NCBI GenBank assembly: GCA_947630625.1
Contig: CANRIL010000007.1
Span: 1-64,000, forward strand
DNA length: 64,000 bases
Direction of reading: 5' to 3'
DNA from: an uncultured Clostridia bacterium
GTDB taxonomy: Bacteria; Bacillota; Clostridia; Oscillospirales; CAG-272
Positions 44,479 to 57,418 of this stretch are shown here, one piece after another. The notes under the pieces were generated by a model. The model saw only the letters and a program-made list of their open reading frames with translations, was not told the origin of the DNA and ran no database searches. Position 1 is the first letter of the stretch, and each line of letters opens with the position of its first letter. The position numbers were made by a program, and so were the translations under genes.

Positions 44479-44595
44479 ATTATTTTTCCTTTCTAATTTT
44501 TTAAAATTTTTTAATATTTAATGATGTTTGTTGAGCTAAGCTCGCTCGTTGAACGCAGCGCTAAACCATATTGAGCGCCTCCTTCCTTTTTGAGA

Positions 44596-44697
44596 TTGGA
44601 CATATCGATCTGTTCTGTGCACATTTTATCATGTCCAAAGGCGCTTGTCAAGTGTTTTGTCATAATTTTTTTGAAATTTTCAAAGTCATCATGTCCA
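44596..44697. promoter_or_regulatory. Three TTGGACAT/ATGTCCAA operator-like motifs
   Basis: TTGGACAT at 44596-44603 faces ATGTCCAA at 44631-44638; another ATGTCCA lies at 44691-44697. The middle one overlaps the promoter spacer of the GTPase gene, the first lies just past its start site. This arrangement fits a repressor. Confidence 0.5.
44623..44651 (-). promoter_or_regulatory. Promoter of the dynamin-like GTPase gene
   Basis: On the minus strand TTGACA (44646-44651), 17-bp spacer, TAAAAT (44623-44628). The leader to the start codon is about 140 nt and holds an AAGGAGG followed by only Met-Val-stop. Confidence 0.75.
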
Positions 44698-44753
44698 TCG
44701 TGCGCCAAAACCTCTCCGTAGGTCTCTTGCCCGATCAAAAACCAATCTCAATC

Positions 44754-44782
44754 TTGACAATGCCGCATCAGCATAGTAAAAT
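44754..44782 (+). promoter_or_regulatory. Promoter of the transketolase genes
   Basis: TTGACA (44754-44759), 17-bp spacer and TAAAAT (44777-44782) stand 46 nt before the first transketolase gene. Confidence 0.8.
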
Positions 44783-44828
44783 ATAAAAGGAGAACAAATT
44801 TAAACTAATATAAAGGAGACATAAAACT

Positions 44829-45665
44829 ATGGATCAGGCAAAAGAAAGATCGCTGCGCCTTCACGCGGCGGATGTGCGTCTTGGCATCATCGAGGCCGTC
44901 TACAATGCGAAATCCGGGCATCCGGGCGGCTCGCTCTCGGTGGCTGACATCATGACGTACCTCTACTTCGAGGAAATGAACATCGACCCCAAGAACCCGA
45001 AGTGGGATGACCGCGACCGCTTTGTTCTCTCGAAGGGACACACGTCCCCGGCGCTTTATTCGACGCTTGCGAATCGCGGCTATTTCCCGGTCGAGGACCT
45101 TAAGACGTTCCGCCACACGGGCAGCTATCTCCAGGGGCATCCCGACATGAAGGGCGTTCCGGGCGTCGATATGTCGTCGGGCTCGCTCGGTCAGGGCTTC
45201 TCGGTCGCGTGCGGCATGGCGCTCGCAGCAAAGCTCTCCGGCAAGTCGTACAGGGTCTATACCGCAGTCGGCGACGGTGAGAGCGAGGAAGGTCAGATCT
45301 GGGAGGCGGCTATGTTCGCCGCTCACTATCACCTTGACAATCTCGTACTCATCATCGACTGGAACGGACTTCAGATCGACGGCAGGATCACGGACGTTAT
45401 GAATCCGACGCCGCACGACGAAAAGCTCCGCGCGTTCGGCTGGAACGTCATTTCCATCGACGCACACAACTTTGAAGAGATCGAGGCGGCATTCAACGCC
45501 GCTCGTGAACACAAGGGTCAGCCGACCGCCATCATCGCCAAGTCGACAAAGGGCAAAGGCGTTTCCTTCATGGAAGACCAGGCGGGCTGGCACGGCAAGG
45601 CGCCGAACGAAGAACAGTACGAGACGGCAAAGGCGGAGCTTCTGGCTTTGCGCGCGTCGATATGA
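44829..45665 (+). CDS. Transketolase, N-terminal (thiamine diphosphate-binding) subunit
   Basis: This 278-residue protein is the first half of a split transketolase, which moves two-carbon units in the pentose phosphate pathway. It has NAKSGHPGGSLSVADIM, the active-site FVLSKGHTSPALYS, the SGSLGQGFSVACGMALA stretch and the ThDP motif GDGESEEGQIWEA ending near LIIDWNGLQIDG. AAGGAGA precedes ATG 44829. The C-terminal subunit follows 21 nt later. Split forms are usual in Clostridia and archaea. Confidence 0.96.
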   Translation: MDQAKERSLRLHAADVRLGIIEAVYNAKSGHPGGSLSVADIMTYLYFEEMNIDPKNPKWDDRDRFVLSKGHTSPALYSTLANRGYFPVEDLKTFRHTGSYLQGHPDMKGVPGVDMSSGSLGQGFSVACGMALAAKLSGKSYRVYTAVGDGESEEGQIWEAAMFAAHYHLDNLVLIIDWNGLQIDGRITDVMNPTPHDEKLRAFGWNVISIDAHNFEEIEAAFNAAREHKGQPTAIIAKSTKGKGVSFMEDQAGWHGKAPNEEQYETAKAELLALRASI

Positions 45666-45686
45666 CGGAAAGGAAGGTATACTGAA

Positions 45687-46628
45687 ATGGCAGAAGCTGT
45701 TGCTACAAGAGAAGCTTACGGAAAAGCTCTCGCCGAATTCGGCGCTAAATATGATAAGCTCGTCGTGCTCGACGCAGACCTTGCAAATGCGACGAAGACG
45801 GATACGTTCAAGAAGGTGTTCCCGGATCGTCACTTTGACTGCGGCATCGCCGAGGCGAACATGATGTGCGTTGCCGCCGGCCTTTCGACCGCCGGTTACA
45901 TCCCGTTCGCATCCACGTTTGCGATGTTCGCGTCGGGACGCGCGTTCGAGCAGGTCAGAAATTCCATCGGTTATCCGCACTTAAACGTCAAGATAGGCGC
46001 GACGCATGCCGGCATTACGGTCGGCGAGGACGGCGCTTCCCACCAGTGCCTTGAGGATATCGCCCTCATGCGCACGATCCCGGGCATGACGATAATAAAC
46101 CCGTCCGATGCAGTTGAGGCGCGCGCCGCAGTCGAGGCGGCGATCAACTACTACGGTCCCGTATATATGCGCTTCGGAAGAATGGCGATCCCGGTCATAA
46201 ACGACACTCCCGACTATAAGTTCGAGCTCGGACGCGGCATACAGATGGCGGACGGCAAGGACGTTACGGTCGTCGCGACCGGCATGATGGTCGAGGTTGC
46301 GCTGCGCGCCCGCGAGCTGCTTGCAAACGAGGGCATCTCGGCGCGCGTCATAAACATCCATACTATAAAGCCGCTCGACGAGGAGATCATCCTCCGCGCC
46401 GCCGCTGAGACGGGCGCGATCGTAACGGCTGAGGAAGCGACCGTCATCGGCGGTCTTGGCGGCGCTGTTGCGGAGCTGCTTTCCGAAAAGCGCCCGACGC
46501 CCGTTGTCAAGCTCGGCATCAACGACGTGTTCGGCAAATCGGGCCCCGCAAAGGAGCTTGTGACGCTGTTCGGCCTCACCGCCGAAAACGTAGCCGCAAA
46601 GGCAAAGGCAGCAATCTCGCTGAAGTAA
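45687..46628 (+). CDS. Transketolase, C-terminal subunit
   Basis: This 313-residue protein is the second half of the split transketolase: the pyrimidine-binding domain with the catalytic Glu region FDCGIAEANMMCVAAGLS, GATHAGITVGEDGASHQ and the C-terminal domain with MADGKDVTVVATGMMVEVAL and TAEEATVIGGLGGAVAELL. It pairs with the N-terminal subunit to form the active site. A strong terminator follows at 46647. Confidence 0.96.
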   Translation: MAEAVATREAYGKALAEFGAKYDKLVVLDADLANATKTDTFKKVFPDRHFDCGIAEANMMCVAAGLSTAGYIPFASTFAMFASGRAFEQVRNSIGYPHLNVKIGATHAGITVGEDGASHQCLEDIALMRTIPGMTIINPSDAVEARAAVEAAINYYGPVYMRFGRMAIPVINDTPDYKFELGRGIQMADGKDVTVVATGMMVEVALRARELLANEGISARVINIHTIKPLDEEIILRAAAETGAIVTAEEATVIGGLGGAVAELLSEKRPTPVVKLGINDVFGKSGPAKELVTLFGLTAENVAAKAKAAISLK

Positions 46629-46646
46629 AAGGTATAATACATAATG

Positions 46647-46677
46647 AAGGGGCGCCTTTCCGAAAGGCGTCCCCTTT
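46647..46677 (+). terminator. Terminator of the transketolase genes
   Basis: AAGGGGCGCCTTT pairs with AAAGGCGTCCCCTT around a C-C-G loop, 18 nt after the stop; only a short T-stretch follows. Confidence 0.75.
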
Positions 46678-46768
46678 AAAATTATTCGGGATATGGTAAA
46701 ATGTCCGCCGACAGTCCGGCGGATTTTTTGATCTCGGCGTTCAGCGCAGGTCTTTCTTTTTTGTTCTA

Positions 46769-47032
46769 TTATTTTAATGACAGTAAATCGTTCGGAGTTA
46801 TGCCGAAGAATTCGGCTATGACCGATATCTCGATGTCGGTCACAAAGCGCTTGCCCGCCTCGATCCGCTGTATCGCGTTTTTGTCGATATCAAGACCGGA
46901 CAGCTGCAAGCCGTCGGCGAGCTGACGCTGAGATATACCGAGCTCTTTGCGCAGCCTTGATATTGTTTCACCGCAGATATTGTTTTTCCCGTCCGCCGAT
47001 TTGTTTATGAACATTATAGCCTCATTTGACAT
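46769..47032 (-). CDS. XRE-family helix-turn-helix regulator
   Basis: This 87-residue protein is a Cro/CI-type DNA-binding domain: ISRLRKELGISQRQLADGLQ then LDIDKNAIQRIEAGKRFVTDIEI and AEFFGITPNDLL. It lacks a separate sensor domain. A later ATG (MFINKS) is an alternative start. It is divergent from a small membrane protein gene, and repeated TGACAT/ATGTCA motifs lie between them, so autoregulation and control of that neighbour are likely. Confidence 0.9.
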   Translation of the reverse strand: MSNEAIMFINKSADGKNNICGETISRLRKELGISQRQLADGLQLSGLDIDKNAIQRIEAGKRFVTDIEISVIAEFFGITPNDLLSLK

Positions 47033-47039
47033 TCAGTGC

Positions 47040-47098
47040 TTGACATAAAAAATATTATATGTTATAATCAATCGGACAATGACATTCAATAAATGTCA
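47040..47098 (+). promoter_or_regulatory. Consensus promoter with a start-site palindrome, small membrane protein
   Basis: TTGACA (47040-47045), 17-bp spacer and TATAAT (47063-47068) form a perfect consensus promoter. Just downstream, TGACATT-CAATA-AATGTCA (47080-47098) is a perfect 7-bp inverted repeat placed to block transcription, most likely by the divergent XRE protein. Further TGACAT copies lie near 47027 and 47041. Confidence 0.75.
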
Positions 47099-47113
47099 AA
47101 CGGGAGGCGTGAC

Positions 47114-47350
47114 GTGTTAAATATACGAGCCACAGGGCGTTTGTTTATGATCATCGGAGTTTGTATCGGAGCTGTTTGCTATACGGTCATTTATAAAGAC
47201 ATGAAGCCCGAAGATGCCTTTGGCGATTACTATACGTACAGAGCGCCGTTTTCGCTTCATGAGTTGTTTATAGTCGTGCTTTTGCTTTTCGCGCCGTTTT
47301 TACTTTTGATCGGGGCGGTTTGCATGGCGGTGAGCCGGGCAAAGGCGTGA
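47114..47350 (+). CDS. Small two-segment membrane protein
   Basis: This 78-residue protein has two membrane segments (FMIIGVCIGAVCYTVIY and LFIVVLLLFAPFLLLIGAVCM) joined by a polar loop with KPEDAFGDYYTY. GTG 47114 is chosen because GGGAGG at 47102-47107 lies 6 nt upstream; the in-frame ATG 47093 lies before that RBS. It is divergent from the XRE regulator. Function unknown. Confidence 0.7.
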   Translation: MLNIRATGRLFMIIGVCIGAVCYTVIYKDMKPEDAFGDYYTYRAPFSLHELFIVVLLLFAPFLLLIGAVCMAVSRAKA

Positions 47351-47392
47351 ACGCTTTTCAATATATCCAAAAATATTTACATAATATACGGT

Positions 47393-47436
47393 GGCAGGGA
47401 GAAAACCTTTTTATAAAGGATTTCCTCCCGCATTTT
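47393..47436 (+). terminator. Terminator of the small membrane protein gene
   Basis: GGGAGAAAACCTTT pairs imperfectly with AAAGGATTTCCTCCC, followed by GCATTTTTATT. Confidence 0.75.
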
Positions 47437-47438
47437 TA

Positions 47439-47468
47439 TTCACGCGTTAAAAACGCGTTGAATATAAT
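47439..47468 (+). promoter_or_regulatory. Promoter of the SOD-like gene with an overlapping palindrome
   Basis: TTCACG (47439-47444), 18-bp spacer, TATAAT (47463-47468). The palindrome ACGCGTT-AAA-AACGCGT (47442-47458) fills the spacer and is a likely operator. Confidence 0.55.
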
Positions 47469-47495
47469 GACCTAAAAGGTTTTCGGAGGTTTTTT

Positions 47496-47978
47496 ATGAA
47501 CGGTTCACCGCAATATGTTATGAGGCTGCTGCGCTCCCGTCCGCAGGCGGCGGCTGAAATTTCGGGGAGCGAGGCATACCCCGATATTTCGGGCATCGCA
47601 AGATTTTATCAGACGCCTATGGGCGTGATCGTGTACGCGGAGATCACGGGACTGCCGAAGGAAGATCGCGTTTTCGGCTTTCATATCCACGAGGGTGACT
47701 CGTGCGGGGGAGCTGATTTTTCAGACGCAGGCGGACATTATAACCCGGACGGCGGCGCGCACCCGTACCACGCGGGCGATCTGCCGCCGCTGTTCGGCAA
47801 TGACGGCTACGCGCTCGCGCTCTTTCTGACAGACAGGTTCTCGGTGTCCGAAGTGGTGGGGCGCACGATGATCGTGCACGGCAGCCCCGACGACTTCACG
47901 ACTCAGCCCGCCGGAAATTCCGGCGAGCGGATAGCGTGCGGCATAATAAAACAGCTCGGGCGGGGGCGGATGATGTAA
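47496..47978 (+). CDS. Cu/Zn superoxide dismutase-like protein
   Basis: This 160-residue protein has the SOD-like fold with GFHIHEGDSCGG (two metal-ligand His), the GGHYNPDGGAHPYHAGDLPPL block (further His and Asp ligands) and the closing HGSPDDFTTQPAGNSGERIACGII with the active-site Arg. The metal ligands look mostly kept. No signal peptide is present, so it would act in the cytoplasm, unlike typical bacterial SodC. CGGAGG lies before ATG 47496. Superoxide removal is plausible, but some Firmicute homologues are inactive. Confidence 0.88.
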   Translation: MNGSPQYVMRLLRSRPQAAAEISGSEAYPDISGIARFYQTPMGVIVYAEITGLPKEDRVFGFHIHEGDSCGGADFSDAGGHYNPDGGAHPYHAGDLPPLFGNDGYALALFLTDRFSVSEVVGRTMIVHGSPDDFTTQPAGNSGERIACGIIKQLGRGRMM

Positions 47979-48000
47979 GCCGCTGCCAATCATAAACGAC

Positions 48001-48037
48001 GCGCGCCGGTCGAAAAAAGACCGGCGCGCACGCTTTT
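48001..48037 (+). terminator. Terminator of the SOD-like gene
   Basis: GCGCGCCGGTC pairs with GACCGGCGCGC around GAAAAAA, followed by ACGCTTTTTT. Confidence 0.88.
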
Positions 48038-48060
48038 TTGGATTTTTCCGTGCTCATATA

Positions 48061-48089
48061 TTGCCGAGGCGCGATAAAACTGATATAAT
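48061..48089 (+). promoter_or_regulatory. Promoter of rhaD
   Basis: TTGCCG (48061-48066), 17-bp spacer and TATAAT (48084-48089) stand 35 nt before rhaD. Confidence 0.7.
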
Positions 48090-48124
48090 GAAGAAAAACG
48101 GACAAATCAAAGCGAGGACTTTTT

Positions 48125-48937
48125 ATGAACGATATTTTGACATCTCCATTTATCTCCGAGATGGCGGAGATAACGTCGAATATGTACCGGCTCGGCTGGA
48201 ATGAGCGCAACGGCGGGAACATAAGCGTTCTGCTCGGCGAGGACGAGATAGCTCCGTACCTCGACGTGACGCGCGTCCTGCGCACGATCCCGACCGGATT
48301 TGAAGCGCCGGAGCTTGACGGGAAATATTTCCTCGTGACCGGCACGGGCAAATACTTCCGCCGCGTCGCAAATGACCCTGAAAACACGCTCGGCATCGTT
48401 CGCATAACGGACAAGGGCAGGGCGGCTGAGCTGCTTTGGGGTTACTCTGACGGCGGCAAATTCACGAGCGAATTTCCGGCGCACATGATGAGCCATGCGG
48501 CGCGCCTGTCGGTCGACCCGGAGAACCGCGTTGTCATGCACTGCCACCCGACGCACACGCTGGCGATGAACTATATACACCCGCTTGACGACAGATCGTT
48601 TACGCGCACGCTCTGGCAGATGTGTACCGAGTGCATCGTCGTTTTCCCGGAGGGCGTCGGCGTTCTGCCGTGGATGCTGTGCGGGACGAACGAGATCGGC
48701 CGCGCCACGGCTGAAAAGATGAAGGAATACCGCACCGTAGTCTGGGGTATGCACGGACTTTACTGCGCGGGCAAGTCGATGGAGGAGACGTTCGGGCTTG
48801 TGGAGACGGTCGAAAAGGCCGCCGAGATATTCATCCTGACAGCGGGCAAACCGCGCCTCAACACGATCCGCGACTGCGAGCTGCGCGAGCTCGCGGAATC
48901 GTTCGGCGTCGCTTACAGAGCCGATTTCCTTGACTGA
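48125..48937 (+). CDS. rhaD: Rhamnulose-1-phosphate aldolase
   Basis: This 270-residue class II aldolase cleaves L-rhamnulose 1-phosphate to dihydroxyacetone phosphate and lactaldehyde. Seen are GWNERNGGNISVLL, KYFLVTGTGKYFR, the zinc-binding HCHPTHTLAMNY and VVWGMHGLYCAGKS with the third His. Length matches E. coli RhaD. It has its own promoter; no rhaA, rhaB or regulator lies nearby, so it is separated from the rest of the pathway. Related fuculose or other ketose-phosphate activity is possible. Confidence 0.93.
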   Translation: MNDILTSPFISEMAEITSNMYRLGWNERNGGNISVLLGEDEIAPYLDVTRVLRTIPTGFEAPELDGKYFLVTGTGKYFRRVANDPENTLGIVRITDKGRAAELLWGYSDGGKFTSEFPAHMMSHAARLSVDPENRVVMHCHPTHTLAMNYIHPLDDRSFTRTLWQMCTECIVVFPEGVGVLPWMLCGTNEIGRATAEKMKEYRTVVWGMHGLYCAGKSMEETFGLVETVEKAAEIFILTAGKPRLNTIRDCELRELAESFGVAYRADFLD

Positions 48938-48952
48938 AAAAAGACAAAACGG

Positions 48953-48981
48953 AGCCGTCGGCGGCAAAGTCTGCCGGCGGC
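48953..48981 (+). terminator. Terminator of rhaD
   Basis: AGCCGTCGGCGGCA pairs, with small mismatches, with TCTGCCGGCGGCT; TTTAAAAT follows. Confidence 0.65.
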
Positions 48982-49035
48982 TTTAAAATAATATGCGCGC
49001 GCATAATATGCGCGCTGCCTTCGCGCCGGGCGGCG

Positions 49036-49202
49036 GTCTTTATCAAAGAAAGCGCCCGTGGATCGAAATATTAAGAGATACGCGGAAACGGGATTTGACA
49101 TAAGTCGGGCTTACCGCGGAGCCCGTGGATTGAAATGCAAACGTCGTCAAGATGGACGCGGACAATTACGTCGGGCTCCCCGCGGAGCGCTGTCGTTGAA
49201 GG
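49036..49202 (+). CRISPR. Degenerate CRISPR remnant, three repeats and two spacers (type I-C-like repeat)
   Basis: The best copy is 49104-49136, which starts GTCGGGCTTACCGCGG and ends GTGGATTGAAAT, the typical end of type I-C repeats. A third copy (49170-49202) keeps GTCGGGCTCCCCGCGGAGC but has a decayed end. A first copy (49036-49069) keeps only GCGCCCGTGGATCGAAAT. The spacers are 34 nt (49070-49103) and 33 nt (49137-49169). No cas gene is in the window. ogt starts 30 nt downstream. Confidence 0.72.
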
Positions 49203-49231
49203 AAACACTTACATCAAATGTGGAGCGAAAA

Positions 49232-49735
49232 ATGAAATATTACACGAAATATGACTCTCCGGTGGGGGAGATCACGATAACGAGCGATGGGGAAGCCGTC
49301 ACGGGGGTGTATATGGCAAACCAGCGGTTCCTCCCCGCGTCGTACGGTGAAAGCGTGAGAGGGCTCGCGATACACGACGCGGCGAGGGCGTGGCTCGACA
49401 GCTATTTCGGCGGCGGCAAACCGCGGCCGCACGATATCGCGCTCGCGCCCGCGGGGACTGAATTCCGCCTTGCGGTGTGGGAGCTTTTGTGCCGCATACC
49501 GTACGGGCAGACGGCTTCGTACGGGGACATAGCGAAGGAGATGGCAGCTTTGAGGCATGTTCCACGCATGTCGGCGCAGGCGGTCGGCGGCGCCGTCGGC
49601 CACAATCCGATTGGTATCATAATACCGTGTCACCGCGTGATCGGCAGCGACGGCGGTCTTGTCGGATACGGCGGCGGACTTGACAGAAAAGTGTTTCTGC
49701 TCCGTCACGAGGGCGTTGACCTGACCGGAATATAA
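49232..49735 (+). CDS. ogt: Methylated-DNA--protein-cysteine methyltransferase
   Basis: This 167-residue suicide repair protein removes alkyl groups from O6-alkylguanine. It has the helix-turn-helix region IPYGQTASYGDIAKEMA and the active-site IIIPCHRVIGSDG, followed by GLVGYGGGLDRKVFLLRHEG. ATG 49232 is chosen with GGAG 6 nt upstream; the longer frame runs into the CRISPR remnant. ATP-independent and monomeric; length is normal for Ogt/MGMT. Confidence 0.95.
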   Translation: MKYYTKYDSPVGEITITSDGEAVTGVYMANQRFLPASYGESVRGLAIHDAARAWLDSYFGGGKPRPHDIALAPAGTEFRLAVWELLCRIPYGQTASYGDIAKEMAALRHVPRMSAQAVGGAVGHNPIGIIIPCHRVIGSDGGLVGYGGGLDRKVFLLRHEGVDLTGI

Positions 49736-49766
49736 ATCGTTCGCGACGCGGAAAATGTCGAAATCG

Positions 49767-49796
49767 TTGACATTTTGGCGGTATCCGTGATATCAT
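49767..49796 (+). promoter_or_regulatory. Promoter of the Card1-like gene
   Basis: TTGACA (49767-49772), 18-bp spacer and TATCAT (49791-49796), giving a leader of about 65 nt. Confidence 0.7.
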
Positions 49797-49812
49797 ATAC
49801 ACGATAAAAACG

Positions 49813-49838
49813 TCATCGCCGCAGGCCTGCGGCGGTGA
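49813..49838. promoter_or_regulatory. 26-bp loop-less palindrome in the leader of the Card1-like gene
   Basis: TCATCGCCGCAGG is followed directly by CCTGCGGCGGTGA, a 26-bp dyad with one mismatched pair, centred about 22 nt past the predicted start site and 32 nt before the ATG. It may be an operator, or a hairpin limiting translation, since no good RBS precedes the ATG. Confidence 0.55.
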
Positions 49839-49869
49839 CCGGAATAAAGTAAAAAAGCTGTGACGTAAA

Positions 49870-51111
49870 ATGACGTATATTGAATTCTTTGACAAAACCC
49901 AGATAGAAAACATCTGCTCAAGTTTGATCTCCCAGCCGGAGAGGGTGATTTTGATCGGGGACAAGCTTAAGCTGCTGCAGAAGCACGCGGACAGGTTCGC
50001 CTCTATCCTTGAAAAGCGCGGGCAGCCGGTCGAGTTTTTGTGCAGAGCGGTAAACAAAAACGACATTTCCGACGTTATAGGCGTTTTGTCCTCGATCGTC
50101 GAGGAATACGACGACTGCGTGTTTGACCTGACGGGAGGCGATGACGTGCTCCTTGTCGCCTCCGGCATCGTATTCGAGCGCTACCGCGACCGCAATATAC
50201 AGATGCACAGGATCAATATCCGCAGCAATAAAATTCAGGACTGCGATCTTGACGGCGTTACCGTTTTTGAAGGCGACGCGCCGTGCGTCTCCGTTGAAGA
50301 AAACGTGCGCATATACGGCGGAGATATAGTTTACGAAGGCAGAGCCGGGGCGACGCCGCGCTGGGACATGAACGACGACTTCGCGCACGATATCGACGTG
50401 ATGTGGGACATATGCAGGCAGGATGTAAGGCGCTGGAACGCGTATATAGGCATTTTTAAGCTGGCGGAGGAATTGGGCGCTCCCGGAAACGACGAGCTCT
50501 CGACTGTCGCGGCAGTATATCTGCTGAAAGAACGCATGAAGGGCGACGGATGGGGAACATATAAGGATCGGATAATTGACGACCTTCGCCTGTTCGGGCT
50601 TGCCGAGGTGACGCGCGATTACGGGCTTATTACAATAAAATACAAAAACGCTCAGGTAAAAAAGGTGCTCACAAAAGAGGGTCAGGTCCTCGAAATGAAG
50701 ATATACCTGACCGCGCTGCGGGCGCAGGACAATGAAGGGGAATATACATACAATGACGTGATGAACGGCGTCAGCATCGACTGGGACGGCGAAATACATA
50801 CAGAGCCCGGCTCCGTCGACACGAAAAACGAGATCGACGTTATGATGATGCGCGGACTTGTGCCAGTTTTCGTGTCGTGCAAAAACGGGCTCGTCGACAT
50901 AAACGAGCTATACAAGCTGAACACGGTCGCTGAACGATTCGGCGGCAGGTACGCGAAAAAGATTCTCGTTGCGACGGCGCTCGACAGCTGCTCCTCCGAC
51001 GATTATATCAGGGCGCGCGCGAAGGACATGGGCATAAGGATAATCGACGACGCCGCGGAGCTTGACGAGGCGGGACTTCTGAAAACGGTAAAATCCTTCT
51101 GGCGCGTTTGA
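49870..51111 (+). CDS. Card1/Can2-like (DUF1887) CARF-domain nuclease
   Basis: This 413-residue protein has a Rossmann-like N-terminal CARF domain (about 1-150) with FDLTGGDDVLLVASG, the ligand-loop type motif of CARF proteins. A winged-helix-like middle (about 205-290) is followed by a PD-(D/E)XK nuclease-like end: N320-E321-I322-D323 and VFVSCKNG with Ser336 and Lys338, then ELYKLNTVAERFGGRYAKKILVATA. Card1/Can2 proteins are cut-on nucleases activated by cyclic oligoadenylate in type III CRISPR. Here there is no Cas10. The usual E-x-K Glu is Ser. It starts the four-gene cluster. Confidence 0.75.
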   Translation: MTYIEFFDKTQIENICSSLISQPERVILIGDKLKLLQKHADRFASILEKRGQPVEFLCRAVNKNDISDVIGVLSSIVEEYDDCVFDLTGGDDVLLVASGIVFERYRDRNIQMHRINIRSNKIQDCDLDGVTVFEGDAPCVSVEENVRIYGGDIVYEGRAGATPRWDMNDDFAHDIDVMWDICRQDVRRWNAYIGIFKLAEELGAPGNDELSTVAAVYLLKERMKGDGWGTYKDRIIDDLRLFGLAEVTRDYGLITIKYKNAQVKKVLTKEGQVLEMKIYLTALRAQDNEGEYTYNDVMNGVSIDWDGEIHTEPGSVDTKNEIDVMMMRGLVPVFVSCKNGLVDINELYKLNTVAERFGGRYAKKILVATALDSCSSDDYIRARAKDMGIRIIDDAAELDEAGLLKTVKSFWRV

Positions 51112-51187
51112 GCTTTTTCGGCGGTTGCGGCTTATTTCGGCAAACGGCGGCAAAAGCTGAAACAAATTGGAACAAAACGCGTTTTTG

Positions 51188-51216
51188 TTGACATGTTCGA
51201 CACGGAGATGTATAAT
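51188..51216 (+). promoter_or_regulatory. Consensus promoter of the AAA+ protease gene
   Basis: TTGACA (51188-51193), exactly 17 bp, TATAAT (51211-51216): a perfect consensus promoter, 86 nt before the start at 51302. The protease and downstream genes can thus be transcribed apart from the nuclease gene. Confidence 0.85.
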
Positions 51217-51301
51217 AATATCTGTAATTTATGATAATTTCGCGTGCCTGCCTTCCGGCGGCGCATGATAAACCTGACATGATCAAAAAAGGGGAGAAAA
51301 C

Positions 51302-54300
51302 ATGGGAGAGATCAAAAACAGCGCGGTGCTTGACAAGCTGTTAGCATACGCAAAAGAGATCGGGGACGGCACGAGCTCCGTTCTGACCGCTGAAAAATTC
51401 GTCATAGCCGTATGCGATTATATCGACGGGACGTTTGACGCGGAGGATACGGGAAACATAGATTCCCTCAGGGCAATTTTCAGCGTCGAGGGAATAGAGC
51501 CGAAAAGCCTCCGGCAGTCGCTGATGATGCGCATCGTCGAAAATAAAGATCCTGCATATGTCGGAGAGCTTTTCATAAGAAAGAAGACGTATGAGGCGAG
51601 GGCGAAGGCGGAAAAGGAAAAAGCGCCTGAAATCACGCCGGAGCTGCTGCTCGTTCTCGTTCTGGACGAACCGACAGATACGATCAGGCAGTGTATGGGC
51701 GGTTCAGCCGGGGCGCCCGGCATTAAGCTGCCGACGGGCGGGGGAAAAGACCCTTACGCCGCGCTGTTCGGGCGCGACTCCGGGGAAAAGTCGAAGGATG
51801 AAGAAAAGAAAAAGCAGCCGGAGCCGGAGACTCGGCCGGCGAACTCGAAGGACGCGATCTACAACATAACCGAAAAGACTAAAAACATCCGCGAGACGCT
51901 CAAAAACATAGTTTTCGGGCAGGATAACGCGATAAACGTTTTCGCGTCCGGATATTTTCAGGCGGAGCTTCTGTCGCTGACGGACAAAAAGCGCGTCCGC
52001 CCGAGAGCGACATTCCTGTTCGCAGGCCCTCCGGGCGTCGGCAAGACGTTCCTCGCGGAAAGCATCGCGAACGCGCTCGGTCTGCCGTTCCAGCGCTTTG
52101 ACATGAGCGAATATTCGGACAACGAGGCGAGCGTTGAATTCTGCGGCTCCGATAAGGTTTACAAAAACGGCAAGGCGGGCAACGTCACGGGTTTTGTCGA
52201 ATCTCATCCGGAGTGCGTGCTGCTGTTTGACGAGGTCGAGAAGTGCCACATAAGCGTTATACATCTGTTTTTGCAGATGCTTGACGCCGGGCGTCTGCGC
52301 GACAATTATACGGACACCGAGGTCAGCTTCAAAGACGCGATCATAATCCTCACGACAAACGCCGGAAAGCAGCTTTATGAGCAGTCGGAATCCGGAGATT
52401 TCTCCGGGCTGCCGAGAAAGGTCATTCTCAACGCGCTCAACAGGGATGTCAACCCGGTGACGGGCGCGCCGTTCTTCCCGTCCGCGATCTGCTCAAGATT
52501 CGCGTCCGGCAACGTCGTTATGTTCAACCATATCGGCGCGCACAATCTGCGAGCGATCGCGAAGAAGGAAATTCTCCGGCACGCGGCGAATTTCGAGCGC
52601 GAGATAGGGATCAAGGTCAACGTCGACGAGAATGTATTCACGGCGATTTTATTCGCTGAGGGCGGCGCTGCGGACGCGAGAACGATCCGCAGCCGCTCGG
52701 AGATGTTCTTTGACGACGAGCTTTACGAGCTTTCAAGGCTCGCCGCCTCCGGCAAAACGACGATCGGTCTGAAGGACATCGACAAAATAGATATAAAGGT
52801 CTGCCTCAGGGAGGGAGACACACAGATCAACCCGCTCTTTATAAGCAAAGAGGCGCCGGATATCCTCGTTTTCGCCTCGGAAGAAATCGCGGCGGCTGTC
52901 GGAACTTATCCGGGACTTTGTGAAATTTCGTCCGCGAAAACGCTCGACGAGGCGGCGGCGATTTTGCACAATAAGGATATAAAAGTGATCCTTATGGACC
53001 CGGCGTGCGGGCGCAGGTCAAACGACACGCAATATCTGAACGTCGAGGACGTTGAATCCGAGGCGAGGGATTTCTTCCGTTACCTGAGGGAGAATTACCG
53101 CGACACGCCCGTATATATACTTGAAACCCCCGGTCACGCGCTTGATCACGAGGAAATGGTCTCGTTTGACAGGCTCGGCGTCCGCGGAGAGCTGTCGCTT
53201 GAGAGCGGGGCTGACGCGCTGAGAAGCAGGCTTGAGCTTATATGCGCGGGCATACATCAGCAGAACAGCATGGCGTATCTTGCGCGGGCGAACAAGCTCA
53301 TTTCGTTTGAAACGGCGCAGTCGATAAACGAGGCGGAAAAAACGGCGGAGATCAGGCTGTTTGACTTCAGGATGGTCACGGCGGTCGACGCCGAGGACTC
53401 CAAAAACATCTTAAGCAGCGTCTCAAGGCCAAACGTGCATTTTGATGATGTTATAGGCGCGGAGGACGCGAAAAACGAGCTCCGTTATTTCGTCGAGTAC
53501 CTGAAAAATCCGAAAAAATATATCGGCACGGGCGTTCGCGCGCCGAAGGGCATCATTTTATACGGTCCTCCCGGCACGGGCAAAACGATGCTCGCGAAGG
53601 CGATGGCGTGCGAATCAGACGTGACATTCATCAACGCGGAGGGAAATCAGTTCCTGCAAAAGCTTGTCGGAGAGGGCAAGGACAAGGTACACGAGCTGTT
53701 CCGCGTGGCAAGAAAATACGCGCCGTCGATTTTGTTCGTCGACGAAATTGACGCGATAGCGAAAGAGCGCACGGGCGGCGAGAACGCGCTTCAGAACGGA
53801 GAGGATATCTTAACGGCGTTCCTCGCGGAGATGGACGGCTTCAAAAACGATCCGTCAAAGCCCGTATTCGTGCTCGCGGCTACGAATTTCGACGTTGAGC
53901 CCGGCAGCTCAAGAAGTCTTGACGCGGCGCTGATGAGAAGATTTGACCGCAAGCTGTACATAGACCTTCCGAAAAAAGACGAGCGGATAAGGTTCATGCG
54001 CAAAAAGCTCGCGTCCAACAAGGCGTTCGAGGTCAGCGACGAAAAGATGGCGAATCTCGCCGTCCGTTCGACCGGAATGAGCCTTGCTGACCTTGAGTCT
54101 GTATTTGAGCTTGCGCTGCGCTCTATGATCCGCGAGGGCATACTTAAGGTAAACGACGACGTGCTTGACGATGCGTTTGAGACGTTCAACGGCGGCGAGG
54201 TCAAGAAGTGGGACGCGGCGACTATTGAACGTGTCGCAAGACATGAGGCGGGGCACACATATATCGCCTGGAGGAGCGGCGAGACGCCTTCATACGTTAC

Positions 54301-54754
54301 CGTAGTCTCAAGAGGAGATCACGGCGGATATATGCAGCATGACAGCGACGAGGACAAGGCGATATATACGAAGGACGAACTGCTCTCGCGGATACGCACG
54401 TCTCTCGGCGGCCGCGCCGCGGAGATAGTGTATTACGGTGAGCGCGACGGACTTTCAACGGGACCGTCTTCCGATCTGATCTCCGCCACCTCGACGGCGC
54501 AGAAGATCATATGCACGTTCGGCATGGACGCTGACTTCGGGCTTGCGGTCGTGACGACGCGTTCCGCAAGAGACGGTGAGCTTTCGGGCGAGGTCAGATC
54601 AGCCGTGAACAGGATACTTGACGAAGAAATGAAGCGTGCGATCGCGCAGATAACGGAAGGAAAGCCGGCGATCGACGCGCTTGTCGAGAAGCTCATCTCC
54701 GAAAACCATCTGGGCGGAGACGAAATAAAGAAGATATTCGAAGAAAACAGATAA
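51302..54754 (+). CDS. Fusion of ClpA/B-type AAA+, receiver-like domain and FtsH-type AAA+/M41 protease
   Basis: This 1150-residue protein combines parts normally separate. After a Clp-N-like helical region and an acidic linker comes a ClpA/B-type AAA+ domain with Walker A GPPGVGKT (242-249), FQRFDMSEYSD and Walker B VLLFDEVEK. Residues about 515-655 look like a response-regulator receiver (ILVFASEE, VILMDPACG, TPVYILETPG) with altered acidic pocket. From about 713 lies an FtsH AAA+ domain (GPPGTGKT, 755-762; ILFVDEIDAIAKER) and an M41 protease with HEAGH (981-985) and third zinc ligand Asp1058 in STGPSSDL. FtsH's membrane anchor is absent, so it is probably soluble. GGGGAG precedes the ATG. 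Confidence 0.88.
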   Translation: MGEIKNSAVLDKLLAYAKEIGDGTSSVLTAEKFVIAVCDYIDGTFDAEDTGNIDSLRAIFSVEGIEPKSLRQSLMMRIVENKDPAYVGELFIRKKTYEARAKAEKEKAPEITPELLLVLVLDEPTDTIRQCMGGSAGAPGIKLPTGGGKDPYAALFGRDSGEKSKDEEKKKQPEPETRPANSKDAIYNITEKTKNIRETLKNIVFGQDNAINVFASGYFQAELLSLTDKKRVRPRATFLFAGPPGVGKTFLAESIANALGLPFQRFDMSEYSDNEASVEFCGSDKVYKNGKAGNVTGFVESHPECVLLFDEVEKCHISVIHLFLQMLDAGRLRDNYTDTEVSFKDAIIILTTNAGKQLYEQSESGDFSGLPRKVILNALNRDVNPVTGAPFFPSAICSRFASGNVVMFNHIGAHNLRAIAKKEILRHAANFEREIGIKVNVDENVFTAILFAEGGAADARTIRSRSEMFFDDELYELSRLAASGKTTIGLKDIDKIDIKVCLREGDTQINPLFISKEAPDILVFASEEIAAAVGTYPGLCEISSAKTLDEAAAILHNKDIKVILMDPACGRRSNDTQYLNVEDVESEARDFFRYLRENYRDTPVYILETPGHALDHEEMVSFDRLGVRGELSLESGADALRSRLELICAGIHQQNSMAYLARANKLISFETAQSINEAEKTAEIRLFDFRMVTAVDAEDSKNILSSVSRPNVHFDDVIGAEDAKNELRYFVEYLKNPKKYIGTGVRAPKGIILYGPPGTGKTMLAKAMACESDVTFINAEGNQFLQKLVGEGKDKVHELFRVARKYAPSILFVDEIDAIAKERTGGENALQNGEDILTAFLAEMDGFKNDPSKPVFVLAATNFDVEPGSSRSLDAALMRRFDRKLYIDLPKKDERIRFMRKKLASNKAFEVSDEKMANLAVRSTGMSLADLESVFELALRSMIREGILKVNDDVLDDAFETFNGGEVKKWDAATIERVARHEAGHTYIAWRSGETPSYVTVVSRGDHGGYMQHDSDEDKAIYTKDELLSRIRTSLGGRAAEIVYYGERDGLSTGPSSDLISATSTAQKIICTFGMDADFGLAVVTTRSARDGELSGEVRSAVNRILDEEMKRAIAQITEGKPAIDALVEKLISENHLGGDEIKKIFEENR

Positions 54755-54782
54755 AAACTCTGCAAAAAGCGAGGACATTTGC

Positions 54783-57056
54783 ATGGACGGGACGGCGGTA
54801 TACATCGAGTCGTTTGAAATAATGCCGGAACCGCTGATAGATCGGGATACGGCGATTTGGTGTATAACGCTGTCCTTTCTTGCGCTTGTTGGTGGGGTAA
54901 CGTTTGCGCTTATGTGCAATCGGATACTTAAGAAAAAAAGGCTGTCGTTGACGGCGCGTCTGTGGATAGGCTTCGGCAGCCTTGCTTCCTCCGTGTTCAT
55001 CCTTCGGCTTATGGTAGGACTGTCCGGCGTGCTCGGAGAGAAGAAATTTATAGGGGCAGGCGCGGTATTTGACAGCCTCGTACACACCTTGCAGACATTC
55101 AGCATGGACGAGGACTACACGGAGTACGTTGAAACGGGCACCAAAATGCTGGAGATACTCTTCGGAGAAACGGATTTTCTGCCCGCATTTTACAACATTT
55201 ATTCGGCAGCCCTCAACTTTATATGCCCGATAGCCGCCGGAGGATTCTTGCTTTCGTTAGTCACCCGATTCTTGCCGAAATTTCGCCTGTGGATGCGGCT
55301 TCATATCTTCGGCAGAAGGAGCGTCCACTGTTATTTCTCGGAGCTTAATGATGCGTCGCTTGCGCTGGCTAAAAGCATTAAGGAACACGACTCCAAGCTG
55401 CAGAACGCGAACATCATCTTTCTCGACGTGTATCCCGACACGGACGACGAGGCTGTTTCCGAGCGGATCGAGCAGGCGGCACGGTTGGGCGCGATATGTA
55501 TGATGGACGACATCCTCGGCATATCCTTCAGAAAGAAAACGAACAAAAAAATCTTTCTCATGGACAGGGTCGGCGAGAACGAGATCGGAAATCTGCAGAC
55601 GTTTGCGGGGTTTACAGATACAAAAGTGTGCGAAAAGCTCCACGCGGGCGATGAGATATACCTTTTCTGTCAGAGCGACAGCAATATACTTGTCGAGCGT
55701 GAGGTCAGCGACATTTTTAAGCGTGAGCTCGGCGAGAACAATGTGCCCGTAGTCATACCGGTCAAAAGCTACAGGAATCTCATCTGCAATCTGTTGACGG
55801 CGGTGCCGCTTTATACGGCGCTCGACCGCGGCAATGACGACGGTGTGCTCAGCGTCACGATATTCGGCTCAGGTCTTATCGGCACCGAGATGTTCCTTGA
55901 CACGTACTGGTGCGGGCAGCTGCTCGACTATACTCTTTCGATAAACGTCGTGTCGATGGAAAAAGAGAGCGATTTCATCGCGAGGATCGACCACATAAAT
56001 CCTGAGATATTCGAAACGCGGAAGCCTGATTCGGAGCTGCTACGGATATACAGCGGCAGCGACGAGCGCGCGCCCGTGTACTTTCATTTCGAATATTATG
56101 AGACGAACATAAGAAAGGACGACCTCTCCGCCAAGCTGAAGGAGAGCAGAGGTGGGAAACGGCTGATCGATTCCGATTACTTTGTCGTAGCCCTCGGCTC
56201 TGACGAAGAAAACCTTGAAATAGCGGAGCTTCTCGGCAGATTCGTGACGGCAGACAAACCGTCGGTGAAGAAAAAGATCCCGGTCGCATATGCTATATAT
56301 GACGACGGACTTGCAAAGGTGCTGGGGACGAACGGCGGGGACGACAAAACATCGGTCATGATGTGCCCGTTCGGCTCGCTCGGCGAGACGTATAATTACA
56401 GCAAGATCGTGCTTGAAGGAATACGTGAATCCGCGGAGCGGATATCGGACATATATAATAAGGCGATCATACGGAAGACGGCGGACAACAAGACGCTTAT
56501 ATACGACCAATATACGTACTGGGCGAACATAGCACGTGCGATACACATGAGCTATAAGGCTTTTTGCATGGGGCTTGACACCGACAGTTATTATCAGGCG
56601 GTGACCGGTAAGGCGGGAACCATAAAAGAGCGCGACAGAAACAGGCTCGCGTGGCTTGAGCACAGGCGCTGGTGCGCGTTTATGCGGACGCGCGGGTTCC
56701 GCGCGCCGACGAGAGAGGAGGAGGCGGGATATATATCGCAGCTTCCCGACGCGGAAGACGGGGATACGTCAAACTGGGGCAAGCACAAAAATCGCGAGCT
56801 TAAGCTCCACCCGTGCCTTGTGGAGGATGACGATCTCGGAAAAAGGGATATTTTTGCCGAAGGCGCGAAGATAGACAGGCTTGATGAGGTCCTTTTCCGC
56901 ATAAAGACGACGTACAAGAGCAAAAATCTTCGTTCGGACGACGATTTCAAGACGGCGGATTTCCCGGACTGGGAATTCAGGGAGTTTGAAAAAAAGAACG
57001 CCGAAAAAGAGAACACACGAAAAAAGCATAATAGGAGGCTCAAATCACATGTATAA
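54783..57056 (+). CDS. Membrane protein with TrkA/RCK-like domains and a C-terminal RyR domain
   Basis: This 757-residue protein has three N-terminal membrane segments (about 23-45, 60-85, 136-163). A cytoplasmic part follows with a degenerate Rossmann-like region (VHCYFSELNDASLALAKSI, then IIFLDVY) and a second with VTIFGSGLIGTE near residue 362, recalling TrkA-N/RCK regulatory domains of ion channels. Near residue 620 begins a ryanodine-receptor (RyR) domain: LAWLEHRRWCAFMRTRGF and KLHPCLVEDDDL. The C-terminus is basic. It starts 28 nt after the protease gene. I infer a ligand-gated membrane sensor or effector; channel activity is not shown by the sequence. Confidence 0.72.
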   Translation: MDGTAVYIESFEIMPEPLIDRDTAIWCITLSFLALVGGVTFALMCNRILKKKRLSLTARLWIGFGSLASSVFILRLMVGLSGVLGEKKFIGAGAVFDSLVHTLQTFSMDEDYTEYVETGTKMLEILFGETDFLPAFYNIYSAALNFICPIAAGGFLLSLVTRFLPKFRLWMRLHIFGRRSVHCYFSELNDASLALAKSIKEHDSKLQNANIIFLDVYPDTDDEAVSERIEQAARLGAICMMDDILGISFRKKTNKKIFLMDRVGENEIGNLQTFAGFTDTKVCEKLHAGDEIYLFCQSDSNILVEREVSDIFKRELGENNVPVVIPVKSYRNLICNLLTAVPLYTALDRGNDDGVLSVTIFGSGLIGTEMFLDTYWCGQLLDYTLSINVVSMEKESDFIARIDHINPEIFETRKPDSELLRIYSGSDERAPVYFHFEYYETNIRKDDLSAKLKESRGGKRLIDSDYFVVALGSDEENLEIAELLGRFVTADKPSVKKKIPVAYAIYDDGLAKVLGTNGGDDKTSVMMCPFGSLGETYNYSKIVLEGIRESAERISDIYNKAIIRKTADNKTLIYDQYTYWANIARAIHMSYKAFCMGLDTDSYYQAVTGKAGTIKERDRNRLAWLEHRRWCAFMRTRGFRAPTREEEAGYISQLPDAEDGDTSNWGKHKNRELKLHPCLVEDDDLGKRDIFAEGAKIDRLDEVLFRIKTTYKSKNLRSDDDFKTADFPDWEFREFEKKNAEKENTRKKHNRRLKSHV

Positions 57057-57333
57057 ACCAAAGCCTGCTGACACGAGCGCCGTCGTGCTCGACACGGAGC
57101 TCACGGAGCTGACGGAGAGAATAGCCGAAAACGTGCACGATGTCTGGGCTGCCGGAAGAATAGCTGAAGGGTGGACATGGGGTCCCGAACGAAACGACGC
57201 TGAAAAAAAGACGCCGTGCCTTGTGCCGTATGATGAGCTCCCGGAGAGCGAGAAGGAGTACGACAGAAAAACGGCGACAGAGACGCTGAAGCTGATCTCC
57301 GCGCTCGGATACGATATAGTAAAAAGACCGTGA
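57049..57333 (+). CDS. Stand-alone RyR-domain protein
   Basis: This 94-residue protein is nearly all RyR domain: ELTERIAENVHDVWAAGRIAEGWTWG, then TPCLVPYDELPESEKEYDRKTATETLKLISALGY, matching the RyR repeat of ryanodine receptors and prokaryotic relatives. ATG 57049 overlaps the end of the upstream gene by 8 nt, with AGGAGG 10 nt before it, so the two are coupled. It could bind the same ligand as the RyR domain of the membrane protein, as a buffer, sensor or subunit. Confidence 0.88.
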   Translation: MYKPKPADTSAVVLDTELTELTERIAENVHDVWAAGRIAEGWTWGPERNDAEKKTPCLVPYDELPESEKEYDRKTATETLKLISALGYDIVKRP

Positions 57334-57360
57334 CGCGGAAAATTTGCGGAATATAACCCG

Positions 57361-57418
57361 ACGCGCATCAACATTTTTGCCTTTATTTGCGGCAAAACGG
57401 CTGATGCGCGTTTTTTTC
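57361..57418 (+). terminator. Terminator of the RyR/protease cluster
   Basis: ACGCGCATCA (57361-57370) pairs with 57402-57411, with an inner TTTTGCC/GGCAAAA helix, followed by a run of seven T. It separates the cluster from convergent dapL. Confidence 0.88.

Follow-up and report, generated by a model that had tools for sequence, protein, structure and literature searches.

What would a single bacterial polypeptide do with two unlike AAA+ motors and a zinc protease of its own? AAA+ proteases either have one motor ring, as FtsH and Lon do, or borrow a separate peptidase, as in ClpAP. The question is raised by a gene in the 64,000-nucleotide stretch of DNA analysed here (the window; positions 1 to 64,000 of contig CANRIL010000007.1, forward strand, assembly GCA_947630625.1, from an uncultured Clostridia bacterium), whose product joins a ClpA/B-type AAA+ module to an FtsH-type AAA+ module and an M41 peptidase domain. 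An initial annotation had called this protein, referred to below as the fusion, ClpA fused to a soluble FtsH, and had proposed a self-contained unfoldase-protease with dedicated substrates. We concluded that the fusion is a real and conserved enzyme, apparently undescribed, that judging from its motifs it is probably active as a self-contained AAA+ protease, and that a hitherto unknown bacterial stress or anti-virus system may have it as its proteolytic arm.

The reading frame starts with ATG and runs without interruption for 1150 amino acids (aa). Its parts are:

51302-54754, + strand: fusion AAA+ protease gene (N-domain, AAA+ of ClpA/B D2 type, receiver-like domain, AAA+ of FtsH type, M41)
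51302-51694, + strand: N-terminal all-helical domain, aa 1-131, weakly ClpN-like (secondary structure from the AlphaFold2 model)
51701-51841, + strand: linker, aa 134-180, probably disordered (predicted local distance difference test score, pLDDT, <50 at 134-177)
51869-52747, + strand: first AAA+ module, aa 190-482, ClpA/B D2 type (Pfam, NCBIfam, homologue alignment)
52025-52048, + strand: first-ring P-loop GPPGVGKT, aa 242-249
52844-53287, + strand: receiver-like domain, aa 515-662, (beta-alpha)5 order, with an invariant Asp566 ending strand 3
53294-53380, + strand: long beta-hairpin, aa 665-693, as the link between receiver-like domain and FtsH-type ring (AlphaFold2 model; conserved in the family)
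53414-54193, + strand: second AAA+ module, aa 705-964, FtsH type (Pfam, homologue alignment)
53564-53587, + strand: second-ring P-loop GPPGTGKT, aa 755-762
54215-54745, + strand: Peptidase M41 domain, aa 972-1148 (Pfam, homologue alignment)
54242-54256, + strand: HEAGH zinc site, aa 981-985
54473-54475, + strand: third zinc ligand, Asp1058

At the level of sequence this anatomy is well supported. Pfam assigned AAA_2 to aa 233-363 (5e-32), AAA to aa 751-888 (9e-49) and Peptidase_M41 to aa 976-1145 (5e-28); the best NCBIfam matches, all partial, were to FtsH for the C-terminal part and to ClpA D2 for the first ring, and ClpB was also matched in part. The first ring also carries the Walker B pair D310-E311, the sensor residue N353, the arginine finger R399 and a conserved pore residue, Tyr287, and the Walker B pair of the second ring is D814-E815. 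Both P-loops, the HEAGH site and Asp1058 lie where the initial annotation had placed them, and the absence of the FtsH membrane anchor was borne out: no membrane anchor was found in the fusion, in which the Kyte-Doolittle maximum over 19-residue windows is <=1.23. No obvious IGL/IGF-type ClpP-docking tripeptide was seen in the first ring (aligned region 352-400), and this, together with the intact conserved motifs and the lack of a membrane segment, agrees with the self-contained unfoldase-protease that had been proposed. The label "ClpA fused to FtsH" is correct in that a ClpA/B-type ring and an FtsH-type ring are both present; it is approximate in that the first ring represents D2 of ClpA/B and no other part, the resemblance of the N-domain to ClpN is weak and the two rings are separated by a receiver-like domain. 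The receiver-like domain, the N-domain, the pore position at Leu788 and the gene neighbours described below are additions to that annotation.

The AlphaFold2 monomer model of the fusion, built from an 18-sequence input, had a mean pLDDT of 74.7 and a predicted template modelling score (pTM) of 0.47, so low that the relative placement of the domains in it is unreliable. Foldseek comparison of the model with PDB put FtsH structures at the top (E 1.8e-25) and p97 further down, the best fold matches being FtsH 4z8x/4ww0 and AFG3L2. For the middle domain, receiver-type profile matches were weak (Response_reg 0.003, OKR_DC_1_N 0.003), but both the predicted order of the strands and the invariant Asp566 fit a receiver fold. 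Of all regions of the family the N-domain varies most, and it is replaced in homologues L036 and L015. Its profile matches to ClpC2/ClpA N-domains were weak (E 0.03-0.1), and Clp_N was matched in 2 of 18 family members (best E 0.12, also weak); these matches do not suffice for a firm ClpN assignment, and the domain would at best be a degenerate ClpN. In L036 (7272-11072, Tractidigestivibacter) an RNase H-like segment stands in place of the N-domain (PF00075 4.5e-7, over a short stretch).

Conservation of the motifs bears directly on whether the protein works. About 29 homologue rows were compared, and nearly all retain the two P-loops, the two Walker B motifs, the sensor-1 Asn, the arginine fingers, HEAGH or HESGH, and Asp1058 (in L030 the sequence is truncated ahead of the first P-loop); the first AAA+ module and the zinc site are thus not degenerate. 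The aromatic pore residue of the first ring (Tyr287) is retained in nearly all homologues, whereas the corresponding position of the second ring is Leu788 in the window copy and Tyr, Phe or Trp in most relatives. Over 22 homologues, the distances of AAA1, receiver, AAA2 and M41 correlate with one another (Spearman rho 0.67-0.80; AAA1 vs AAA2 permutation p = 0.001), which indicates that the parts evolved as one unit. The source genome (2.49 Mb, 94% complete, with one copy of the fusion) is in 63 contigs and is probably a metagenome-assembled genome (MAG), a state of assembly that would suit a chimera, arising either by misassembly or by the fusion of two genes into a pseudogene. Such an origin is almost certainly wrong, since the same full-length layout recurs in many independent assemblies from various hosts and studies, with conserved motifs and correlated divergence. 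Misassembly and a degenerate enzyme were both ruled out on these grounds.

More than 20 Clostridia gut MAGs, assembled independently of one another, contain full-length relatives. Within the family of the source genome, 10 of 196 genomes carry the fusion, as do 2 of 399 other genomes sampled across the phylum. A scan of GTDB contigs gave about 20 further full or near-full relatives from Clostridia gut MAGs, a few of them on the same contigs as in the 196-genome family set, as well as a more distant Tractidigestivibacter relative of 35% identity. Among the matches listed from phage and plasmid records only the FtsH half was represented and none covers 80% of the query, and viral contigs yielded only partial AAA matches; a phage- or plasmid-borne fusion was rejected on this basis. 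The patchy distribution, together with the lack of a phage or plasmid record covering 80%, indicates that the fusion is an accessory chromosomal gene. One genome has, in addition to an intact copy elsewhere, a second and apparently broken copy (L147 3712-5483, G011:C58; N- and C-terminal pieces, middle missing), which adjoins membrane-RyR, NERD and TerB-like genes.

This distribution has to be set against a role in general proteostasis, in which a soluble FtsH/Clp hybrid would deal with stress-damaged cytosolic proteins and would lie near signalling genes by location only. Such a role would accord with enzymatic motifs that are all intact, with loci where no partner gene is seen, and with a ClpN-like N-domain, as ClpN-like domains usually recruit general adaptors in ClpA and ClpC. 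However, the distribution of the fusion in the family and phylum is patchy, the source genome already encodes a separate 723-aa FtsH-like protein and ClpB/C-like proteins of the canonical kind, the N-domains are variable, and the fusion co-occurs strongly with a membrane-RyR gene (see below). We consider general proteostasis unlikely.

The reading that we prefer, a protease attached to a signalling module, starts from the genes around the fusion. The neighbouring features in the window are:

49767-49796, + strand: promoter-like site (11/12, extended -10) upstream of the CARF gene
49870-51111, + strand: CARF-PDDEXK protein, Card1/Can2-like (PF09002 2e-6; PADLOC CARF4--CARF_PDDEXK 6e-26)
51188-51216, + strand: promoter TTGACA-17-TATAAT, a perfect sigma-70 consensus 86 bp upstream of the fusion (consensus match only)
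54783-57056, + strand: membrane-RyR protein, 757 aa, with N-terminal hydrophobic helices, Rossmann/RCK-like domains in tandem and a C-terminal RyR-like domain
57049-57333, + strand: stand-alone RyR domain, 94 aa (PF02026 4e-36), its start codon overlapping the membrane-RyR stop
57360-57416, + strand: intrinsic-terminator-like hairpin and T run (-26.8 kcal/mol), 3' of the RyR gene

The gap between the fusion and membrane-RyR genes is 28 bp, and the fusion, membrane-RyR and stand-alone RyR form an apparent operon. The predicted model of the membrane-RyR protein (pLDDT 72.7, pTM 0.70) had the Slo2.2 K+ channel as its best Foldseek match (E 7e-4), which is consistent with its tandem RCK-like domains; H627, W630 and H676 are invariant in its C-terminal RyR-like domain. 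In the nuclease part of the CARF-PDDEXK protein the Glu of the (D/E)xK motif is Ser (SCK) in 7/7 family members. Farther upstream, the window encodes a Cu/Zn superoxide dismutase (Sod_Cu, 2e-29; 47496-47978, + strand), which we judged unusual for an apparently anaerobic gut lineage, and, 7 kb from the fusion locus, a dynamin-like GTPase (42160-44478, - strand) with weak likeness to PADLOC LeoBC/LeoA (1e-13, 9e-11).

Partner genes of this kind recur. Among 27 fusion loci, YbjN-like genes lie within 6.5 kb of the fusion in 11, membrane-RyR in 10, stand-alone RyR in 8 and CARF-PDDEXK in 5; further recurrent neighbours are TerB-like, ADP-ribosylglycohydrolase, DUF1292-like and TIR-TPR genes. The YbjN label derives from general resemblance and from a small protein next to the L015 fusion that had a Pfam match; the main YbjN-like family, of about 155 aa, had no Pfam match. 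TIR, SIR2 and ADP-ribosylglycohydrolase genes were all found in homologous loci; L048, for example, has the gene row membrane-RyR, TIR, SIR2, TIR, fusion and YbjN-like, and L049 carries kinase and vWA genes. At least one recurrent partner is present within 6.5 kb in 21/27 loci, a count that is descriptive because the partner profiles were partly built from these same loci, and co-occurrence was therefore tested independently of linkage in the 196 family genomes. Membrane-RyR is present in 20 of them and is shared by 9 of the 10 fusion genomes (p = 1.6e-9), the YbjN-like family is present in 10, all of which are among the 20 membrane-RyR genomes (p = 1e-11), and stand-alone RyR is present in 9, with the fusion in 5 (p = 1.3e-5); the genomes are related and so not wholly independent, which inflates these p-values somewhat. 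Of the two kinds of count the genome-wide one carries more weight, and the link between the fusion and its recurrent partner set is strong. The source genome also has a YbjN-like tandem pair that is unlinked to the fusion (G000:C2:12883-13848; L140 7881-8948), with a TIR domain in a long frame about 11 kb away.

The module also exists without the protease. CARF, membrane-RyR and RyR genes stand together with no fusion at the locus in L056 and L060, as do TIR and membrane-RyR in L062, L146 and L149; G031 (L060) and G158 (L149) carry the fusion on another contig. In L062 (6204-7853) and L146 (4977-6623) the gene adjoining membrane-RyR encodes a TIR-LRR protein, and the two may be a Thoeris-like pair whose effector is of a new type. 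L143 has a non-protease AAA+ ATPase in an operon-like row with a YbjN pair and membrane-RyR, and in L144 one lies beside a YbjN pair (L143 8263-10353, L144 7054-9108; about 690 aa with AAA_lid_6); no fusion was found in these two genomes. Such partial replacement by another AAA+ protein suggests that protein remodelling is a shared need of the module. A protein of a Hydrogenedentota locus (L040 3424-6249) combines a RelA/SpoT domain with TPRs and a RyR domain, and a gene for a ClpB-like AAA+ protein lies beside its gene.

These loci also bear on a role as a direct antiviral effector, a protease that CARF or RyR sensors would activate against proteins of the phage or essential ones of the host. 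Defence pairs of an AAA protein and a protease are known, e.g., IetAS, and the AAA2 part of the fusion matches PADLOC IetA models; its neighbours (CARF, RyR, TIR and SIR2) are typical sensors or makers of immune signals. But no PADLOC model spans the whole protein, and membrane-RyR/CARF modules often occur without the fusion (L056, L060, L062), so that the protease is not required. A direct effector role is doubtful in our view.

Which signal would the partners read? A 2026 preprint describes phage RyR-domain proteins that bind or cleave 2'/3' cyclic ADP-ribose (cADPR) through H75, W78, H100 and D117 (PMC13232231). In the stand-alone RyR partners a His is followed by Trp at +3, by His or Thr at +25 and by Asp at +42, which is the spacing of H75/W78/H100/D117 in RyDEP, and several membrane-RyR proteins have all four residues exactly spaced. 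By analogy, the RyR partners may be binders of cADPR-type ligands, for which the several TIR domains encoded in the source genome are possible makers; no TIR was found among the scanned genes neighbouring the window fusion, the TIR domains lying elsewhere in the genome. The window stand-alone RyR keeps the His, the Trp (+3) and the Asp (+42). A second, solitary membrane-RyR gene in the source genome (G000:C13:31419-33179; L054/L141) has all four RyDEP-like residues exactly spaced, unlike the window copy.

A different signal, cyclic oligoadenylate acting through the CARF protein, would make the fusion an ancillary of a type III CRISPR (clustered regularly interspaced short palindromic repeats) system. 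The CARF-PDDEXK neighbour and a Cas1 elsewhere in the genome fit this explanation. Against it, no Cas10-palm match was found in the 94%-complete genome, a CARF neighbour is present in only 5/27 loci, and the (D/E)xK Glu is Ser in 7/7 CARF relatives, and we regard it as very improbable.

We propose instead that the fusion is a soluble, ATP-dependent and zinc-dependent protease, presumably assembled as a hexamer in which two AAA+ rings are stacked. The variable N-domain would pick substrates, the ClpA/B-D2-type ring would engage and pre-unfold them, and the FtsH-type ring would feed them into the covalently attached M41 chamber; with M41 attached in this way to a soluble protein, neither ClpP nor a membrane would be needed. 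The receiver-like domain may couple or regulate the two rings. The protease would be an optional proteolytic arm of a patchy and so far undescribed Clostridia module centred on the RCK-channel-like membrane-RyR protein, with stand-alone RyR, CARF-PDDEXK, TIR or YbjN-like partners as additions, which resemble sensors, makers or effectors of signals derived from nicotinamide adenine dinucleotide (NAD; cADPR-type) or of cyclic-oligonucleotide signals. Most likely, it would remodel or degrade components of the module, as a threshold or reset, or intruder proteins upon signal; dedicated substrates, perhaps within the cluster as first suggested, are plausible. The anatomy, motif conservation, missing anchor, operon-like layout and co-occurrence were read from sequence, and activity, hexamer, substrate class and immune role are what we infer. 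To a soluble double-ring AAA+ protease serving a nucleotide-signal-linked stress or immune module we give about an even chance. More tentatively, RyR domains, including one borne by an RCK-channel-like membrane effector, might read an NAD-derived signal (e.g., a cADPR isomer), and the double-ring zinc protease might set or end the response by proteolysis.

Several points weigh against this proposal, besides the shared origin of the partner profiles and the relatedness of the genomes noted above. Leu788 at the pore of the FtsH ring may weaken the second motor of the window copy. Six of the 27 loci have no recognised partner within 6.5 kb (some flanks are short), nor do the distant relatives L036 and L053 have recognised partners. 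The window stand-alone RyR has Thr at the +25 position of the phosphate-binding His (H100), where several relatives have His, and an insertion in the window membrane-RyR breaks the simple +25/+42 spacing, with H627, W630 and H676 retained. No Cas10-palm match was found in the genome that would point to a source of cyclic oligoadenylate for the CARF protein.

If the more tentative reading is true, nucleotide immune signalling in bacteria would have a dedicated ATP-dependent protease directly linked to it. The fusion, a natural protein whose two rings are unlike and which brings its own protease, offers a test of substrate hand-over between different motors in one chain, and its partners connect RyR domains, known from phage cADPR binding and cleavage, with channel-like membrane proteins and regulated proteolysis. 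Concrete, testable predictions follow on how gut bacteria might destroy proteins under the control of a signal. Neither a Clp-FtsH-M41 fusion nor a RyR/CARF/protease locus was found described in the literature searched, which took in only part of the journals.

Among known systems, FtsH and the m-AAA and i-AAA proteases share with the fusion an FtsH-type AAA+ joined to M41, with HEXXH and Asp as third ligand. The fusion differs in having no membrane anchor or periplasmic domain, in its additional ClpA/B-D2-type ring, receiver-like domain and N-domain, in its FtsH_fam score (325.8 bits vs the NCBIfam cut-off of 600), and in the aromatic pore-1 residue, replaced by Leu788 in the window copy. With the HSP100 proteins ClpA, ClpC and ClpB it has in common a D2-type AAA+ module and a weakly ClpN-like N-domain, but it lacks the D1 ring and an obvious IGL/IGF tripeptide, carries the FtsH-type AAA+ and protease instead, and scores 156 with the ClpA model against an NCBIfam cut-off of 993. 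In IetAS, an AAA ATPase is likewise coupled to a protease, and the AAA2 part of the fusion matches IetA models at 4e-46; IetAS has a subtilisin-like serine protease, whereas the fusion is a single polypeptide with two rings and a zinc M41 domain. The stand-alone RyR partners resemble RyDEP/RyR R12 in the H, W(+3), H/T(+25) and D(+42) spacing (PMC13232231), a likeness in sequence; unlike them, the module partners are chromosomal, lie beside a protease or membrane protein, and in many cases have Thr rather than His at +25. Some relatives recall Thoeris in pairing a TIR gene with membrane-RyR (L062, L146, L149), a possible maker and effector, but no ThsA was recognised, a RyR/RCK-like membrane protein being present instead, and the TIR genes are weakly ThsB-like. 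The upstream gene has the CARF plus PDDEXK layout of Card1/Can2, although its protein is divergent (SCK vs ECK) and no Cas10 was found in the genome. The nearest published idea is the "FtsH ternary" group of MoxR-vWA conflict systems, in which a double FtsH-type AAA protein with an inactive first domain accompanies MoxR-vWA core genes (Kaur, 2020; PMC7159879). No MoxR or vWA was present among the Pfam-scanned window neighbours (42160-57333), and MoxR was not seen in the homologous loci read. The fusion resembles the ternary systems in its conflict-system context, in being a double AAA+ protein with an FtsH-type second domain, and in that rare ClpN fusions occur in the ternary system (PMC7159879); it differs in that its first ring is of ClpA/B type and intact, and that M41 is fused to it.

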